This document shows positions 4,788 to 28,730 of a stretch of DNA of 37,194 nucleotides, one piece after another. Position 1 is the stretch's first letter. The number at the start of each line of letters is the position of its first letter. Both the position numbers and the translations under genes were made by a program. The stretch is from a virus: positions 1-37,194 of IMG/VR virus record IMGVR_UViG_3300023548_000004; one strand, written 5' to 3'. The notes under the pieces are model-generated. The model worked only from the letters and a program-made list of their open reading frames with translations. It did not search any database and had not been told where the DNA came from.

Positions 4788-4895
4788 GTGCCTGCGGCTG
4801 TGCTGTGTGCGGTGTTGGTGGGTGCTTTGGGTGTGGAAGCCATCGGCATGTTGGCGATTTTGAATAGGTTTAATACGGAGGTTGAAGATGAGTGA
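4788..4895 (+). CDS. Tiny membrane peptide, GTG start
   Basis: A 35-codon ORF from GTG 4788 (an in-frame stop lies directly upstream) to TGA 4893-4895, overlapping the start of the next gene at 4888. The product begins with a glycine/alanine-rich hydrophobic helix (PAAVLCAVLVGALGVEAIGM) and ends in an acidic tail. A competing ORF in another frame (ATG 4774, 29 codons) gives an implausible Trp/Cys-rich product. No clear Shine-Dalgarno is seen, so confidence is limited. Confidence 0.45.
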   Translation: MPAAVLCAVLVGALGVEAIGMLAILNRFNTEVEDE

Positions 4896-5511
4896 TGATG
4901 CAGTAGCGATTCCCGCAGGTTATCGCAAAAATGAAAAAGGTCATTTGGTGCCTGAAGACATGATCGACGAGCTGGACAAGATGCGTGATGAGCTGGTGTT
5001 GGATATTAAGGAACGGTTTGTTACCGCGAGTGAATACCTGATCGGCATGAAAACGTGGGTGATGAATGCGATTTACGCCTTCCGCGATGTTTCAGCGATG
5101 GAATACAACGCTCCGATTGGTGGCGCGAAGGGTAACATCCAGTTGATGTCGTTCGACGGCAGCGTGAAGGTGAAGGTGCAGGTGCATGAGTTCATCACGT
5201 TCGATGAACGTTTGCAGGTGGCTAAGACCTTAGTCGATGAATGTATCACCGAATGGACTGAAGGCTCACGCGATGAGCTGAAAGTTATTGTTGCTGGGGC
5301 GTTTGATACAGACAAGCAGGGCAATGTATCCACTGCTAAAATCATGGGCTTGCGCCGCTATAAAATTGACGATGAACGCTGGGTAAGAGCCATGCAGGCA
5401 TTGACAGACTGCATGATTATGCACGGCAGCAAAAGCTATGTGCGCGTGTATTTGCGCGTGGGGGACGACAACAGGTGGAAGGTTGTACCGTTGGAGTTTT
5501 CTGCATTGTAA
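4888..5511 (+). CDS. DUF3164 family protein
   Basis: The 207-residue product matches the DUF3164 family, commonly found in the early region of Mu-type phages (GYRKNEKGHLVPEDMIDELD near the N-terminus; the central GGAKGNIQLMSFDGSVKVKV; C-terminal RRYKIDDERWVRAMQAL). The function of the family is not established, although it is sometimes mislabelled as a sulfate transporter. The start at ATG 4888 follows GGAGG at 4878-4882; an upstream TTG at 4882 is less likely. It is followed by a 77-bp sequence that recurs at 6146. Confidence 0.88.
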   Translation: MSDDAVAIPAGYRKNEKGHLVPEDMIDELDKMRDELVLDIKERFVTASEYLIGMKTWVMNAIYAFRDVSAMEYNAPIGGAKGNIQLMSFDGSVKVKVQVHEFITFDERLQVAKTLVDECITEWTEGSRDELKVIVAGAFDTDKQGNVSTAKIMGLRRYKIDDERWVRAMQALTDCMIMHGSKSYVRVYLRVGDDNRWKVVPLEFSAL

Positions 5512-5515
5512 AAGT

Positions 5516-5592
5516 GAAACGGCGGAGCGATCCGCCGTCTGCCCGGTGTGGTGATCGGGTACTGATGAGCAAGCCGAAGGAGATAGTGATGG
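5516..5592 (+). repeat. 77-bp direct repeat, copy 1 (leader of lar)
   Basis: This stretch is identical to 6146-6222. It contains a hairpin (GGCGGA 5521-5526, loop GCGA, TCCGCC 5531-5536), a mini reading frame ATGAGCAAGCCGAAG from 5565, the Shine-Dalgarno AAGGAG (5577-5582) and the start codon at 5589. The four bases before it (5511-5514) also match, with one difference at 5515. It serves as a ready-made translation leader for the following gene. Confidence 0.95.
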
Positions 5593-5951
5593 ACGTTATA
5601 ACATTGAATGATGAATTAAAACCTTGCCCCTTTTGTGGAGGCGAAATCGATACGATTATTAAGGATGATACACAATGTTTCGTAGTATGTCGTAACTGCG
5701 GTTGCAAGGGGGCACCTAGCTATGCTATTACAGAAGAAGACGCTATCGTTTATGATACAACAACAAAAGAACACTCAAATACTGAAGCTATAGAGAAATG
5801 GAATAAAAGAATTGGTGACCGTAATAAGTTTGTGCCTGTATTTGTACGACCTTCCTCAATCACAACTAATGAGCAAGCCGAAGGTGTTGGGGTTCGTGCC
5901 TCACCGCCAACCTACGAAAGAACTGAAGGAGATGATGATGGACGTATCTAA
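5589..5951 (+). CDS. lar: Lar-family restriction alleviation protein
   Basis: This 120-residue protein carries the Lar signature. Near its start is LKPCPFCGGEID with C13 and C16, then VVCRNCGC with C34 and C37 forming a zinc knuckle pair, and EAIEKWNKR at ~67-74. Rac prophage Lar moderates restriction by type I systems by enhancing modification, so the product is probably an anti-restriction protein. The start is ATG 5589 with AAGGAG six bases upstream, inside the duplicated leader. The core ends near residue 76; the remaining ~45 residues overlap the leader of the next gene and may be a run-on. The region is AT-richer than its neighbours, consistent with acquisition. Confidence 0.85.
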   Translation: MDVITLNDELKPCPFCGGEIDTIIKDDTQCFVVCRNCGCKGAPSYAITEEDAIVYDTTTKEHSNTEAIEKWNKRIGDRNKFVPVFVRPSSITTNEQAEGVGVRASPPTYERTEGDDDGRI

Positions 5952-6138
5952 GATTAAAATATTTGGAGCTGGAAGGGCAAGGGAAATCACCATTAATGTT
6001 TATGGTGGTGGTGTGCCGTTGGACAGTATTGAAGCGGCTGTGAATGCACTGGCAAGGGTTCTACCCCAAGAAGTAAGCATAGCTGCATATACCCATTCTG
6101 GGGAACAAGTCGCTTTTTCGATTGGTTCGGCTACGTAG
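5938..6138 (+). CDS. Small hypothetical protein in accessory block
   Basis: The ORF encodes 66 residues from ATG 5938, with the Shine-Dalgarno GAAGGAG at 5925-5931 placed exactly as in the duplicated leader. The product is a compact alpha/beta protein (ITINVYGGGVPLDSIEAAVN, then ARVLPQEVSIAAYTHSG). No family is recognised. An alternative start at ATG 5869 would add 23 residues beginning MSKPKVLGFVPHRQPTKELK; that reading frame copies the first codons of the repeat. It overlaps the end of lar by 14 bases. Confidence 0.65.
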   Translation: MDVSKIKIFGAGRAREITINVYGGGVPLDSIEAAVNALARVLPQEVSIAAYTHSGEQVAFSIGSAT

Positions 6139-6145
6139 ATAAAGC

Positions 6146-6222
6146 GAAACGGCGGAGCGATCCGCCGTCTGCCCGGTGTGGTGATCGGGTACTGATGAGC
6201 AAGCCGAAGGAGATAGTGATGG
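6146..6222 (+). repeat. 77-bp direct repeat, copy 2 (leader of next gene)
   Basis: It is identical to 5516-5592, 630 bases downstream of the first copy. It includes the GGCGGA/TCCGCC hairpin, the ATGAGCAAGCCGAAG mini frame, AAGGAG at 6207-6212 and the start codon at 6219. The match ends just after the ATG, so the repeat is a leader rather than shared coding sequence. Confidence 0.95.
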
Positions 6223-6479
6223 CACTACAACCAATGCAGAAGTTTTTTTTAATGTTTGATGATGTACAAAATAAACATCCGCATGTTTTGTTCGACATGG
6301 GTTATAATAGGATTTCAGATTGGATCATAACAATCTGGGACGCTGAGCACTGTGGTATAAGAAATGCTAAAATAATTGTTCAATCTAATGGAACGACAAG
6401 AAATAAAGCATTTAAACGTGCAACTAAATCACTTCGGAAATGGGCTTCAACACACAAGAAAGGTCATGACTCACTATGA
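6219..6479 (+). CDS. Hypothetical protein in accessory block
   Basis: The ORF encodes 86 residues from ATG 6219 behind the second copy of the duplicated leader; the in-frame ATG at 6195 would add eight leader-encoded residues. The product is AT-rich in codon use, with a central aromatic segment (DMGYNRISDWIITIWDAEHC) and a basic C-terminus (RATKSLRKWASTHKK). The family is not recognised. Its stop overlaps the following start (ATGA). Its composition and shared leader suggest it was acquired with, or by the same route as, lar; a host-interaction role is possible but unproven. Confidence 0.68.
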   Translation: MALQPMQKFFLMFDDVQNKHPHVLFDMGYNRISDWIITIWDAEHCGIRNAKIIVQSNGTTRNKAFKRATKSLRKWASTHKKGHDSL

Positions 6480-7141
6480 TTGATTGCGCTTGCCCTTGCT
6501 GTGGGGCGCGGGGGTCGCTGGAGATGTTTTGCCAACAAGGTGTGGATGCTTCCTTGATGGCGGCATTGGCGACTATGCCGAGCGATTGCGGTCGCGAAGT
6601 GTTCCGCTACCTGCGGCTATTTGCCCCACAACGTAACAAAAAAATAAGCAAAGATAAGGCACTGCGTTTGCTCAACGAACTGCTGGCAATGATTAAACAC
6701 GGCGGCACATACCGCAAAAAACTGATTACCGCGCCATCACACGTGTGGGCGCAGGCATTGGCGCAAACGTGCGATAGCTTGAACGCCAAAGCCGATTACA
6801 AACCATTGCCCAGCCATAATTACCTGTTGCAGGTGGTGCATAGTGTGCTTAACGGAGGGCAGCGGGCAGAAGACAGAGGGCAGAAAGATGAACCAAAGCA
6901 TATTGCGCCGCGTACGTCATCTGCATTGCAGACGGTGGGCGAAGTGCTGCAACCTAAACCAAAACCAAAACAAGAACCTGTGGTTCACCCCATACCAAAA
7001 GACCAAATTGAACAATGGCTGATAAAAGCAAGAGACGATTTGATTCATGACAAAGGATTGCCCGAAAAAGGCTTGCTACCGTCCATGATCGCCCACCATG
7101 CCGAGGCGTTGTATAATAAGGAGTTGCAAGATGCACGTTAA
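6476..7141 (+). CDS. Zinc-ribbon hypothetical protein of Mu-type early region
   Basis: This 221-residue protein opens with a cysteine cluster (CACPCCG, residues 4-10) that resembles half of a zinc ribbon. Residues ~40-125 are helical and basic (REVFRYLRLFAPQRNKKISK), and ~145-175 are a Lys/Pro/Gln-rich linker (PKPKPKQEP). A degenerate 7-bp repeat tract underlies residues ~127-138 (QRAEDRGQKDE). The C-terminal helix (DQIEQWLIKARDDLIHDKGL) completes it. Its function is unknown; a DNA-binding or replication accessory role is inference. The start overlaps the preceding stop. Confidence 0.75.
   Translation: MIDCACPCCGARGSLEMFCQQGVDASLMAALATMPSDCGREVFRYLRLFAPQRNKKISKDKALRLLNELLAMIKHGGTYRKKLITAPSHVWAQALAQTCDSLNAKADYKPLPSHNYLLQVVHSVLNGGQRAEDRGQKDEPKHIAPRTSSALQTVGEVLQPKPKPKQEPVVHPIPKDQIEQWLIKARDDLIHDKGLPEKGLLPSMIAHHAEALYNKELQDAR
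6855..6889 (+). repeat. Degenerate heptanucleotide tandem repeat in coding sequence
   Basis: The units GAGGGCA, GCGGGCA, GAAGACA, GAGGGCA and GAAAGAT repeat with a 7-base period within the gene at 6476-7141. They form a linker region of the protein. A similar sequence on the opposite strand closes the reverse-strand gene near 8318-8336. Confidence 0.7.
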
Positions 7142-7349
7142 AGAAATAATGAAGTTATTGAATAAAGCCAAGCGCATTTGTGACGAAGACGAATTTGAGC
7201 GGGTGTTTTATGAACTTTTTGGGTGGCGTGATTATCAACACAAAATTAAAAGCGCACAAATTGCACTCGATCATATTGAGTTTGAAAAACTCATGGAAGA
7301 GAATAAAAAGATAGACTATTTTATGGATTATGATGCGCTGGAGGGGTGA
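7131..7349 (+). CDS. Small acidic hypothetical protein
   Basis: The ORF encodes 72 residues from ATG 7131, with AAGGAG at 7119-7124, overlapping the previous stop. The product is helical and charged (KEIMKLLNKAKRICDEDEFE). No family is recognised. The TGA at 7347-7349 is followed in the same frame by 32 further codons of charged helical sequence ending at 7448, so the gene may have been longer or may be followed by a tiny separate ORF (ATG 7362, 28 codons). Confidence 0.65.
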   Translation: MHVKEIMKLLNKAKRICDEDEFERVFYELFGWRDYQHKIKSAQIALDHIEFEKLMEENKKIDYFMDYDALEG

Positions 7350-7361
7350 AGTGCTAAGGAG

Positions 7362-7448
7362 ATGCTGCAAAGAATAGCGAAGCACGAAGAAGACATAGCG
7401 CGTTATGAACGTAATGAAAAACGTATACACAAACTACTGGGGGTTTGA
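7362..7448 (+). CDS. Tiny ORF in frame with upstream gene
   Basis: 28 codons from ATG 7362 give a charged helix (MLQRIAKHEEDIARYERNEK…). It lies in the same frame as the preceding gene, four codons after its stop, and directly precedes gemA. AAGGAG immediately abuts the ATG, which is too close for normal initiation; GGAGG at 7341-7345 is about 16 bases away. It could be a read-through extension, a remnant of a truncated C-terminus, or a coupled micro-gene. Confidence 0.35.
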   Translation: MLQRIAKHEEDIARYERNEKRIHKLLGV

Positions 7449-7449
7449 C

Positions 7450-7866
7450 ATGGCTGACACATCACCTGCGGCTTACCGCCGCCGCGAATTGGGATTGATC
7501 CATCAAGCTAAGGCTGCGCTGAAGCTGGATGATGACGATTACCGCGACATGCTGGAACGGCTGTGTGGTGTGCGTTCAGCCGCCGACTTGGACAGTCGTG
7601 GACGGTTTAAAGTGATCGCCGAGTTGGAGCGCATGGGTTATAAACCCAAAGCGCGCCGTAACTATGGGCGTAAACCTGCTGTAAACGGCGATAAAACGGC
7701 ATTAATGAACAAGATTGAAGCACAGCTAGCCGATGCTAAACTACCGTGGGCGTATGCCGAGGCGATTGCCAAGCGCGTGTGCAAGGTGGACAAATTGGCG
7801 TGGTGCAATACCGCGCAACTGCGCAAGGTGGTGGCTGCCTTGAACTATCGGGCGAAACGCACATGA
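7450..7866 (+). CDS. gemA: GemA-like regulatory protein (Mu gp16)
   Basis: The 138-residue product matches the GemA/DUF1018 family. Its N-terminal signature is LIHQAKAALKLDDDDYRDML followed by ERLCGVRSAADL, and its C-terminal half carries KVDKLAWCNTAQLRKVVAAL. In Mu, gemA modulates host gene expression and DNA topology. The start is ATG 7450; an upstream start at 7405 adds an unlikely N-terminus. No strong Shine-Dalgarno is seen. The stop overlaps the mor start (ATGA), matching the Mu order gp16-mor. Confidence 0.9.
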   Translation: MADTSPAAYRRRELGLIHQAKAALKLDDDDYRDMLERLCGVRSAADLDSRGRFKVIAELERMGYKPKARRNYGRKPAVNGDKTALMNKIEAQLADAKLPWAYAEAIAKRVCKVDKLAWCNTAQLRKVVAALNYRAKRT

Positions 7867-8270
7867 GCAGCGTACGTAAAAACGCTATGGATTGCGATTT
7901 GCCAGAGCTGCTGGATTTGGCGCAAGAGCTGCCCCGCGATTATTCGTGGTTGCAATCGTTGGCAGAGCTGGTGGATGTGCTGCGTGAAGATGCCATACAG
8001 CGCGGTAAAAAAGCGGCAGTAGCAGAAGCCGAGGCAAAGCGCATCGTCATATTGATCGCCCACTATTGGGGTGGTCGTTCGGTTTATTTACCGCGTAACG
8101 ACAAATTGCGCCAAGCCCTGCGCAATATACAGATTTACCACCAGTTTGATGGCTCGAACGTGAAGCAACTGGCAGCGCGCTACCGCTTGACGGAGGTTTC
8201 TATCTACACGATCATCAAAGAGCAGCGGGCGATACGCAAAGCGAAGCAGCCCGCGTTGTTTGGTCGGTAG
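7863..8270 (+). CDS. mor: Mor-family transcription activator
   Basis: This 135-residue protein belongs to the Mor/C family of late transcription activators. Residues ~55-90 carry the dimerisation region (AKRIVILIAHYWGGRSVYLP) and ~95-125 the DNA-binding helix-turn-helix (FDGSNVKQLAARYRLTEVSI). In Mu, Mor activates the middle promoter and C the late promoters; here only one member of the family is seen, so it may do both jobs. It starts at ATG 7863 overlapping gemA. It is the last gene before the accessory block and lysis genes. Confidence 0.9.
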   Translation: MSSVRKNAMDCDLPELLDLAQELPRDYSWLQSLAELVDVLREDAIQRGKKAAVAEAEAKRIVILIAHYWGGRSVYLPRNDKLRQALRNIQIYHQFDGSNVKQLAARYRLTEVSIYTIIKEQRAIRKAKQPALFGR

Positions 8271-8302
8271 TTGGTAGTTGGCAGTTGTTCGTTGGCAGTG
8301 GT
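8268..8302 (+). repeat. Degenerate heptanucleotide tandem repeat
   Basis: The units TAGTTGG, TAGTTGG, CAGTTGT, TCGTTGG and CAGTGGT follow each other with a 7-base period, starting in the mor stop codon region. They fill the gap between mor and the convergent reverse-strand gene. No U-rich terminator is evident there. Confidence 0.7.
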
Positions 8303-8315
8303 GCGCAAGTGCCCC

Positions 8316-9062
8316 TTACGCATCTGCCCTCTGCTCTTTGATACGGTGGGGAAGTTCATACACCTGTTCGGCAATCATGGTGACCAGCGCAATGGCTTCT
8401 TCCACCTGTTTTGCGCTGGGGCGTGTGCCTTCGTGTAGGGCTGCATTGCCTTGGTCGCGTACATGGTGGGCAAGTTCACACAAGGGCTTGGTGATGATGT
8501 TGTTTTGTTGCATTTTTTCTAAGCGGTCAAAAAGGTTGCTGCGGTCGGCTTCGTCCAGCTTCAGTTGCTCTTTGCTGATCAGGTCAAGAATGCAACGGCA
8601 AGCGGCGGCGGCGTGTTTGCTGTTAGCGGCAACTTCAAAAAGGTCATTAAAGGCAGTCGCCACGGCTTCTGGCAGTCCTTGGGGAATGCGTAACAGTGCC
8701 ACTTCGTGCCAGTGAAAGTTGCTGCAAACCTTGCCGAGGTCGCAGCCGTAACCGTCGCCGTTGATGGTGCGCATTTGCTGTTGCTGCAAGCTTACTGGCA
8801 GGTGGCTGGCGGTCGCAGTCACCACTTGCAAGCGGTTTAATTGTGGCTCCAGCAAGTGGCTGTTAAAGCTGGCAAACAAGGCACTGCGGCAATTTGAGCA
8901 GCAAAAGATACCACGCCAGCGGTTGTTTACCTGCTGCCACCCTTGCGTGTTTGGTGCGATATTGCTCAGTTCGGTCACCATGGCCGCATGCAGCAGTGAA
9001 AATTTGGTAATAGCCCGACAGTTCGGGCATGGTTGATGATCAATATAATGGAGATAAGGCAT
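8316..9062 (-). CDS. Zinc-ribbon DUF4145 protein (reverse-strand accessory gene)
   Basis: The 248-residue product starts at the minus-strand ATG 9062-9060, with AGAGGA about ten bases upstream; a start at 9140 is less likely. The N-terminal zinc ribbon has C12-P-N-C15 and C55-S-N-C58 (CCSNC). Residues ~140-240 match DUF4145: a helical region with KHAAAACRCILDLI, ITKPLCELAHHVRDQGNAAL and a final helix IALVTMIAEQVYELP. DUF4145 proteins are often found beside restriction and other defence genes, so a superinfection or defence role is plausible but inferred. Reverse orientation inside a forward phage genome is typical of a moron. Confidence 0.8.
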   Translation of the reverse strand: MPYLHYIDHQPCPNCRAITKFSLLHAAMVTELSNIAPNTQGWQQVNNRWRGIFCCSNCRSALFASFNSHLLEPQLNRLQVVTATASHLPVSLQQQQMRTINGDGYGCDLGKVCSNFHWHEVALLRIPQGLPEAVATAFNDLFEVAANSKHAAAACRCILDLISKEQLKLDEADRSNLFDRLEKMQQNNIITKPLCELAHHVRDQGNAALHEGTRPSAKQVEEAIALVTMIAEQVYELPHRIKEQRADA

Positions 9063-27320: not shown

Positions 27321-28730
27321 ATGGCAGATTTAACCGATAACCCAAATACATTCCCCGTCGCAGTGCATGAAATTGGCATAAACGAGCCAGTCATGGGCGG
27401 CGCAGGTGGTAACGATAATGTACCGCATCAGCAGTTAGCCGACAGAACGGCGTGGTTAAAGGCGCAGGTTGATGCGCTAAAAACAGCAGGCTTTGTGGAT
27501 GCCGCAGCCATTACCGCTGCCATTAACGCCCACCTTTCCGCTGCCGACCCTCACCAGCAATACACAACGCAAGCCGAAGTGGATGCCGCGATTGCGGCGC
27601 AGACGCTGCAACCACTATTGACCAATGCCGATGTGCTGGCAACAGCAAAAAGTGCGATGAACGTGGATGCCAATACCATGACAACATCAGGCTTTTACAA
27701 CGGTTATGGCACAAACTGGCCGCTGACTGGGGCGGCAAACTGGCAATACATGACGGTGCTGCGGCATAGCAATGGAACGGTGGTGTGGTGTCATCAGCGG
27801 GTGTATGACTTTTACTCGGTAAAAACATTTGAACGTCGCGCAGAAGGCGGCGTGTGGCAGCCGTGGGTGGAAACAACAGTCAGCAGCGTAGCCGACATTA
27901 TTGCCTTGATTAACAACCACGCCCCTGCTGCACCCGTACAATCGGTGGCTGGAAAAACAGGAGCAGTAACGCTGGTTGCCAGTGATGTAGGGGCAGAGCC
28001 TGCTAATGGCAACATTCAAGGTCACATCGCTGCACCACACCAGCCGTTATTGACCAATGACGATGCCCTTGCCAGCGCGTTATATAAACCAGCGGTTGAT
28101 GCCAACAGCTTGGTCGTGACTGGTATTTACAATGGGTACGGTGCCAACTGGCCGCTGACTGGCACAATGAACTGGCAATACATGACGGTGATTCGCCACA
28201 CCGCTGCGTCAGCAGTGTGGTGTGTGCAAACCGTGTATGATTTTTACAGCGATACCACATGGCAGCGGCGATGCGTCAATAATGTATGGGCGGCATGGGT
28301 GAAAACATCGGGCTATAACAGCGCGGGGGCAGTGATTGCCTTAGCACATAGCACCGTGCCTGCGGGTTATTTTGAGTGCAATGGTGCAGCTATATCGCGC
28401 ACGGTTTATGCTGATTTGTTTGCGGCAATCGGCATTAGTTACGGTGTTGGTGATGGCACGACTACGTTTAACCTACCCGATTTGCGTGGTGAGTTTGTGC
28501 GTGGTTGGTCGCATGGTCGAGCGGTAGATACAGGACGTGCGCTGGGAAGCTGGCAGGTCGATGATTTTAAGAGCCATACGCATACACAGCTCTTTAAAAG
28601 CACAACAGGCGGATCGAGCGCAGGCGGCGACCCAAACAACATCGTTAACAGTACAATCAATACTGGAGCAACAGGTGGCACAGAAACACGACCACGCAAC
28701 GTGGCGATGATGTATTGCATTAAGTATTAA
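27321..28730 (+). CDS. H: Tail fibre with duplicated knob and collar domain
   Basis: The 469-residue product starts with the same anchor module as the spike (DLTDNPNTF, NEPVMGGAGGNDNVPHQQLA). Two similar units at ~98-184 and ~241-328, 143 residues apart, resemble the pyocin-type knob (GFYNGYGTNWPLTGAANWQY versus GIYNGYGANWPLTGTMNWQY). Between them lies VQSVAGKTGAVTLVASDVGA. The C-terminal ~335-469 is a phage tail collar domain (VPAGYFECNGAAISR, DGTTTFNLPDLRGEFVRGWS). It probably binds host surface sugars. A 7-bp repeat tract follows the stop. Confidence 0.88.
   Translation: MADLTDNPNTFPVAVHEIGINEPVMGGAGGNDNVPHQQLADRTAWLKAQVDALKTAGFVDAAAITAAINAHLSAADPHQQYTTQAEVDAAIAAQTLQPLLTNADVLATAKSAMNVDANTMTTSGFYNGYGTNWPLTGAANWQYMTVLRHSNGTVVWCHQRVYDFYSVKTFERRAEGGVWQPWVETTVSSVADIIALINNHAPAAPVQSVAGKTGAVTLVASDVGAEPANGNIQGHIAAPHQPLLTNDDALASALYKPAVDANSLVVTGIYNGYGANWPLTGTMNWQYMTVIRHTAASAVWCVQTVYDFYSDTTWQRRCVNNVWAAWVKTSGYNSAGAVIALAHSTVPAGYFECNGAAISRTVYADLFAAIGISYGVGDGTTTFNLPDLRGEFVRGWSHGRAVDTGRALGSWQVDDFKSHTHTQLFKSTTGGSSAGGDPNNIVNSTINTGATGGTETRPRNVAMMYCIKY

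Follow-up and report, generated by a model that had tools for sequence, protein, structure and literature searches.

Tandem type II hammerhead ribozymes in the variable DUF3164-GemA region of a B3/Mu-like transposable phage

Introduction

In 2011, tandem hammerhead ribozymes were described on either side of variable prophage genes, ardA among them (Perreault et al., PMC3088659). They cleave in vitro, and those of Agrobacterium also cleave when cloned in E. coli (PMC3088659). The same authors proposed that the tandem prophage hammerheads cut phage RNA into shorter mRNAs; recombination is not mentioned in their paper (PMC3088659). The purpose of hammerheads in bacterial and phage genomes has been called an open question (PMC6155905).

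The DNA analysed here is a viral record of 37,194 bases, referred to as the window. It has MuA- and MuB-like genes by position together with DUF3164, Lar and GemA, and this gene content identifies it as a B3/Mu-like transposable phage. Pseudomonas phage B3 and Ochrobactrum phage POA1180 share with it the series of MuA, MuB, small genes, DUF3164 and variable genes, and GemA is also present in B3. Unlike the window, the two phages have no hammerhead match in the parts examined. The window resembles the triple hammerhead around ardA of Agrobacterium tumefaciens (PMC3088659) in that several prophage hammerheads flank single genes or short blocks and an anti-restriction gene lies downstream. It differs in the location, the DUF3164-GemA slot of a B3/Mu-like phage, in the gene, which is lar and not ardA, and in the near identity of its ribozyme copies. 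The ribozyme class and its tandem arrangement around phage genes, one of them an anti-restriction gene, were thus already known (PMC3088659). What is new is that the DUF3164-GemA slot is conserved and that there are signs of crossover inside the core of the ribozyme. A literature search that left most subscription journals outside found no work naming this slot, the overlap of ribozymes with stop codons or a gene exchange at hammerheads.

Results

The repeat pair was confirmed by self-comparison of the window. Positions 5516-5592 and 6146-6222 are identical over 77 nt, as the original prediction had stated, and in the extended repeat (5511-5592 and 6141-6222) the lone mismatch is T5515 versus C6145. 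The repeat ends at ATGG, just within the start codons of lar (5589) and of an orphan gene (6219), which also agrees with the earlier description. At a length of at least 30 nt, the window contains just two families of direct repeats, and the leader pair is one of them. A genome-wide repeat was ruled out, since the 37-kb record holds only two full copies and one remnant. The features of the region are collected in Table 1. As a separate observation, two 122-nt direct repeats (27694-27815 and 28126-28247, 73% identical) are found within one gene for a 469-aa protein that resembles a tail-fibre or collar protein.

Table 1. Coordinates of the features around the repeated leader (window positions).
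Feature	Position	Strand	Evidence and remarks
DUF3164 gene	4882..5511	+	PF11363, phrog_846; E=2.9e-69; UAA stop at 5509-5511 adjoins HHR1
Repeat copy 1	5511..5592	+	Ribozyme, ribosome-binding site GAAGGAG and ATGG; 81/82 identity to 6141-6222
HHR1, type II hammerhead ribozyme copy 1	5512..5579	+	Rfam RF02276 54.9 bits (cutoff 37); model R1 66.5 bits
lar, restriction alleviation protein	5589..5951	+	PF14354 47.9 bits (cutoff 28.6); phrog_599 E=3e-18
3'-end remnant of a third hammerhead, CTAATGAGCAAGCCGAAGG	5865..5884	+	20 nt; BLAST match to the leader, E=4e-4
Orphan gene between lar and HHR2	5938..6138 (or from ATG 5869)	+	ORF
Repeat copy 2	6141..6222	+	Ribozyme, ribosome-binding site and ATGG
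HHR2, type II hammerhead ribozyme copy 2, consensus core	6142..6209	+	RF02276 60.1 bits; model R1 70.2 bits
Orphan gene after HHR2	6219..6479 (or from AUG 6195 in the ribozyme core)	+	ORF
phrog_2161 gene, right edge of the insert	6476..7141	+	E=7e-40; directly after DUF3164 in L097
GemA (Mu-like), right limit of the ribozyme-bearing slot in relatives	7450..7866	+	PF06252 95.7 bits

An exact search found no copy of the leader in genome_contigs, and its exact core is present in three further IMG/VR contigs. For most of their length these contigs match the window at 99.1-99.8% identity, and each carries both copies. Two contigs of this phage that include both flanks, L004 and L006, retain the T5515/C6145 difference; a third, L005, begins at 5516 and therefore lacks the first flank. 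A 77-mer repeat could be made by an assembler, because 77 nt is a common k-mer size and L005 starts exactly at the first base of the repeat. However, in four contigs with 99.1-99.8% identity the genes are complete and each of the two copies has its own flanks, and the T/C difference, lying outside the 77-mer, is preserved in L004 and L006. Since both copies and this difference recur in other contigs of the same phage, an assembly artefact is extremely improbable. Two other features of these contigs were observed. In L005, positions 6663-8400 link window 12181 to an inverted segment, window 21465-19728, which reflects either a misassembly or a rearranged genome. In L004, 1-1311 is DNA left of the first base of the window, and thus the window is without part of the left (regulatory) region of the phage.

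The two leader copies gave the only Rfam matches in the window, both to RF02276, with scores well above the gathering threshold of 37. GAAAC, GUC and CUGAUGA form the core of both, and both contain the whole tested set of CUGAUGA, GAAA, A15.1-U16.1 and a NUH cleavage triplet. With the type II family RF02276 (PMC3088659) they share the open stem II, the closed stems I and III, the GAAA and CUGAUGA cores, the GUC cleavage site and the pseudoknot between loop I and the 3' tail, the strands of which are UGG/CCG in the window. They differ from it by U11.1 in copy 1 and, in both copies, by one additional A, lacking in most relatives, that separates stem II from the pseudoknot strand. HHR1 and HHR2 are on one strand, the same as the genes, and are 563 bp apart. 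Judged by these matches and core motifs, both leader copies are type II hammerhead ribozymes (RF02276). From the core and the established hammerhead mechanism, cuts are predicted after C5539 in copy 1 and after C6169 in copy 2.

The hairpin, the mini reading frame and the strong ribosome site that the original prediction had listed are all there. The hairpin is stem III of the hammerhead (5519-5538 in copy 1), the ribosome site is GAAGGAG, and the start of the mini reading frame is the AUG within the catalytic core CUGAUGA (5565 in HHR1, in frame with lar). This frame was considered as a leader peptide and rejected. The core AUG opens a frame of at least 40 codons in 26 of the 79 ribozymes having this AUG, which is about the one third expected by chance; the frame is a by-product of the CUGAUGA core. 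A promoter or terminator reading was also rejected, because promoter-like matches are near chance and the only terminator-like match at the leader lies on the opposite, minus strand.

When the leader was compared by BLAST with DUF3164 relatives, a 35-nt stretch with up to 94% identity emerged, conserved in phages whose DUF3164 proteins are less than 50% identical. This indicates that the element itself is under constraint. A covariance model was built from 37 relatives and used to scan 147 non-redundant DUF3164 loci. Ribozymes were detected in 85 of the 147 loci, two or more in 22, and on the coding strand in every case. Where both markers were detectable, the ribozymes lie between DUF3164 and GemA without exception (68/68 loci). 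The end of the upstream stop codon falls -8 to +3 nt from nt 1 of the ribozyme in 97 of 103 cases, and the stop codon overlaps the ribozyme by 1-3 nt in 73 of these. A start codon follows downstream, usually within about 20 nt. The usual setting is therefore a tight fit between the stop of one gene and the ribosome site of the next. In a set of 249 genomes sampled from one Pseudomonas-type genus, such ribozymes occur in 10; in 5 of the 10 they form pairs with a spacing of about 0.7-1.2 kb. The exact 77-bp leader turned up in this phage alone, but its structural homologues are widespread.

The alignment of 66 distinct sequences showed that 16 of 21 pairs are altered on both sides and 95.9% of cells are paired, which no shuffle matched. 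Covariation is strong in stems I and III and supports the type II topology, with I and III closed by loops and II open. The pseudoknot between loop I and the tail covaries as well (96% of cells paired), changing from UGG/CCA to CGG/CCG and UAG/CUA. A plain duplicated leader, that is, a promoter, terminator or ribosome-site region serving as a recombination arm and having no ribozyme function, would explain why the duplication is exact and ends at the start codon. Yet the RF02276 matches, the covarying structure and conserved core in 85 loci, the lack of a promoter excess and a terminator-like match on the other strand only already contradict it, and we regard it as very improbable. The leader had been taken for an anonymous recombination arm; it is instead a hammerhead with conserved homologues, and its main role is probably RNA cleavage.

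The window pair is the most alike of the 22 tandem cases, with 98.5% identity against 58-92% in the others and an average of 72% in unrelated pairs. The duplication or conversion is therefore recent. A different spacing was seen in L135 (5515-5672), where a gap of just 30 nt, without a gene of usual size, separates two hammerheads.

The single mismatch between the copies sits on core nucleotide 11.1. The 10.1-11.1 pair closing stem II is G-C in copy 2 and a G-U wobble in copy 1 because of T5515. C is found at 11.1 in all but 3 of about 107 ribozymes, and U11.1 occurs elsewhere among them only in L091 (6039-6128) and in the second ribozyme of L114 (6416-6487). U11.1 may weaken copy 1. Structure prediction without the pseudoknot favoured an alternative fold by about 13 kcal/mol in both window copies; the median of this gap in relatives is 6.3 kcal/mol, and the window exceeds most of them. 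The copies could be decayed or regulated ribozymes, with copy 1 slow or inactive and HHR2 alone efficient, so that lar and the last gene would be unequally expressed. The only difference between the copies is at this core position and is fixed in the assemblies of the phage that cover it, copy 1 has the lower score (54.9 versus 60.1 bits), and the alternative fold is strong. However, G10.1 and U11.1 are still able to pair, L091 and L114 have U11.1 too, and activity can persist with weakened 10.1-11.1 pairs (PMC3088659). We consider this reading rather unlikely.

For the genes of the region, the phage collection contains no DNA-level relatives of 5300-6700. The Lar protein of the window has the zinc-ribbon domain (PF14354) above the curated cutoff. 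Searches of Pfam and the phage collection gave no match for the middle orphan gene, and relatives of the last orphan gene were seen in the same phage only. Neither lar nor the last orphan gene was found beside a ribozyme in other phages.

The remnant of a third hammerhead sits near the 3' end of the lar frame and precedes the middle gene. A scan with model R1 detected no full hammerhead there, even with the filters off. Differing from other Lar proteins in its C-terminal part, the lar frame (5865-5951) runs beyond the Lar domain, through the remnant and into the start of the next gene. The array may once have had three ribozymes, and a deletion may have fused lar to the remnant. Separately, the leader of the middle gene, HRQPTKELKEMMM (window 5869-5941), resembles that of the gene after DUF3164 in L008 (5654-5690; SRQPTLKEMEM), and the likeness includes CGCCAACCTACG at the DNA level. 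Leaders 1 and 2 look alike but for 45 bp missing between GAAGG repeats.

Comparison of related phages showed that homology often ends at or within a ribozyme. L097, the closest distinct relative, has the phrog_2161 gene immediately after DUF3164 and lacks the entire insert of HHR1, lar, orphan gene, HHR2 and orphan gene. L071, L168 and L169 have both ribozymes and the outer flanks in common, with three different contents in between: a gene of 71 codons together with a DUF2786-like gene, only the DUF2786-like gene, and two other genes. Two ribozymes flank a 134-codon gene in L103, and L107 and L123 have a single ribozyme and then directly GemA. Similarly, two ribozymes flank a DUF2786-like gene in L109 and L133 has one. 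This one is a hybrid, its 5' half being as in L109 HHR1 and its tail as in L109 HHR2.

Ribozyme halves were tracked in 52 pairs of ribozymes with flanks homologous on a single side. Stem III goes with the upstream gene (85% versus 71%), the tail with the downstream gene (87% versus 80%); the permutation p=5e-5 is without correction for relatedness. This is the pattern expected from crossover within the ribozyme core. Compared with all gene junctions, ribozyme junctions are more often breakpoints. Compared with junctions of the same region, the frequency of homology breaks is 0.84 at ribozymes versus 0.60 on the right-conserved side, and on the left-conserved side it is 0.80 versus 0.79, with no excess. 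The case for ribozyme junctions as exceptional breakpoints is clear against all junctions and only partly so against same-region ones. The comparison indicates that the whole region is hypervariable and that the ribozymes are at least passive seams.

It is a realistic possibility, if a somewhat less than even one, that the ribozymes only process RNA and mark gene boundaries in a hypervariable early-gene slot that breaks at gene borders anyway. All DUF3164-GemA junctions break often, as the left-conserved side shows (0.80 versus 0.79), and the closest relative, L097, has neither the insert nor a ribozyme scar. Against this, phage pairs with two versus one ribozyme show the hybrid expected of crossover, entire ribozyme-to-ribozyme intervals are replaced, the 5' half follows the upstream gene while the tail follows the downstream gene, and the window pair is 98.5% identical.

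The original prediction of a cassette slot was partly borne out. Gene content varies, and swaps and losses coincide with homologous copies of the element; the leader, however, is not a mere recombination arm. Constant gene content, which would have spoken against a slot, was not what we found, since the genes downstream differ among relatives. The insert is absent from L097. The four assemblies of the window phage are constant in content, and its predicted deletion form (DUF3164, one hammerhead, last gene) was not detected in viral contigs. Anti-restriction genes, supposed to be the typical cargo, did not hold as a rule: Lar is one of 104 genes directly downstream of ribozymes, and the only PADLOC match is weak.

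Discussion

We consider it highly probable that the hammerheads cut the early-operon RNA of this B3/Mu-like phage and also offer DNA where genes get exchanged. Most likely, the operon RNA is cut into shorter mRNAs. This fits the geometry of the locus, because the stop codon and a 3' hairpin stay with the upstream piece and a 5' hairpin and the ribosome site go with the downstream piece. In the window phage, cleavage after C5539 and C6169 would release separate mRNAs for DUF3164, for lar with an orphan gene, and for the other orphan gene with the phrog_2161 gene. Each upstream piece would keep its own stop codon and end in the stem III hairpin. At the start of each downstream piece there would be a 5'-OH, followed by the hairpin of stem I and a strong ribosome site, and expression of the piece may be affected by the cut. 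One may speculate that the stop codon at the ribozyme edge lets a terminating ribosome delay folding.

As DNA, the repeated element between genes would provide a short conserved stretch for the gain, loss or exchange of neighbours, and we infer that recombination could have caused the exchanges. HHR1, lar, the orphan gene, HHR2 and the second orphan gene make up an insert lying between DUF3164 and the phrog_2161 gene. One of the two window ribozymes is a recent duplicate of the other, in either direction.

Tentatively, and with some doubt, we propose that the hammerheads are working joints of a modular operon, where genes between copies become independently translated units and are traded by crossover in the core. 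In this view each ribozyme would free its transcript by cutting and would at once provide a spacer from stop to start and conserved DNA for recombination. This study places many hammerheads at one defined slot of Mu-like phages, in a fixed relation to stop and start codons, and provides concrete phage pairs in which a ribozyme is the seam of a gene swap. The roles of these ribozymes in RNA processing and in cassette exchange thereby become directly testable.
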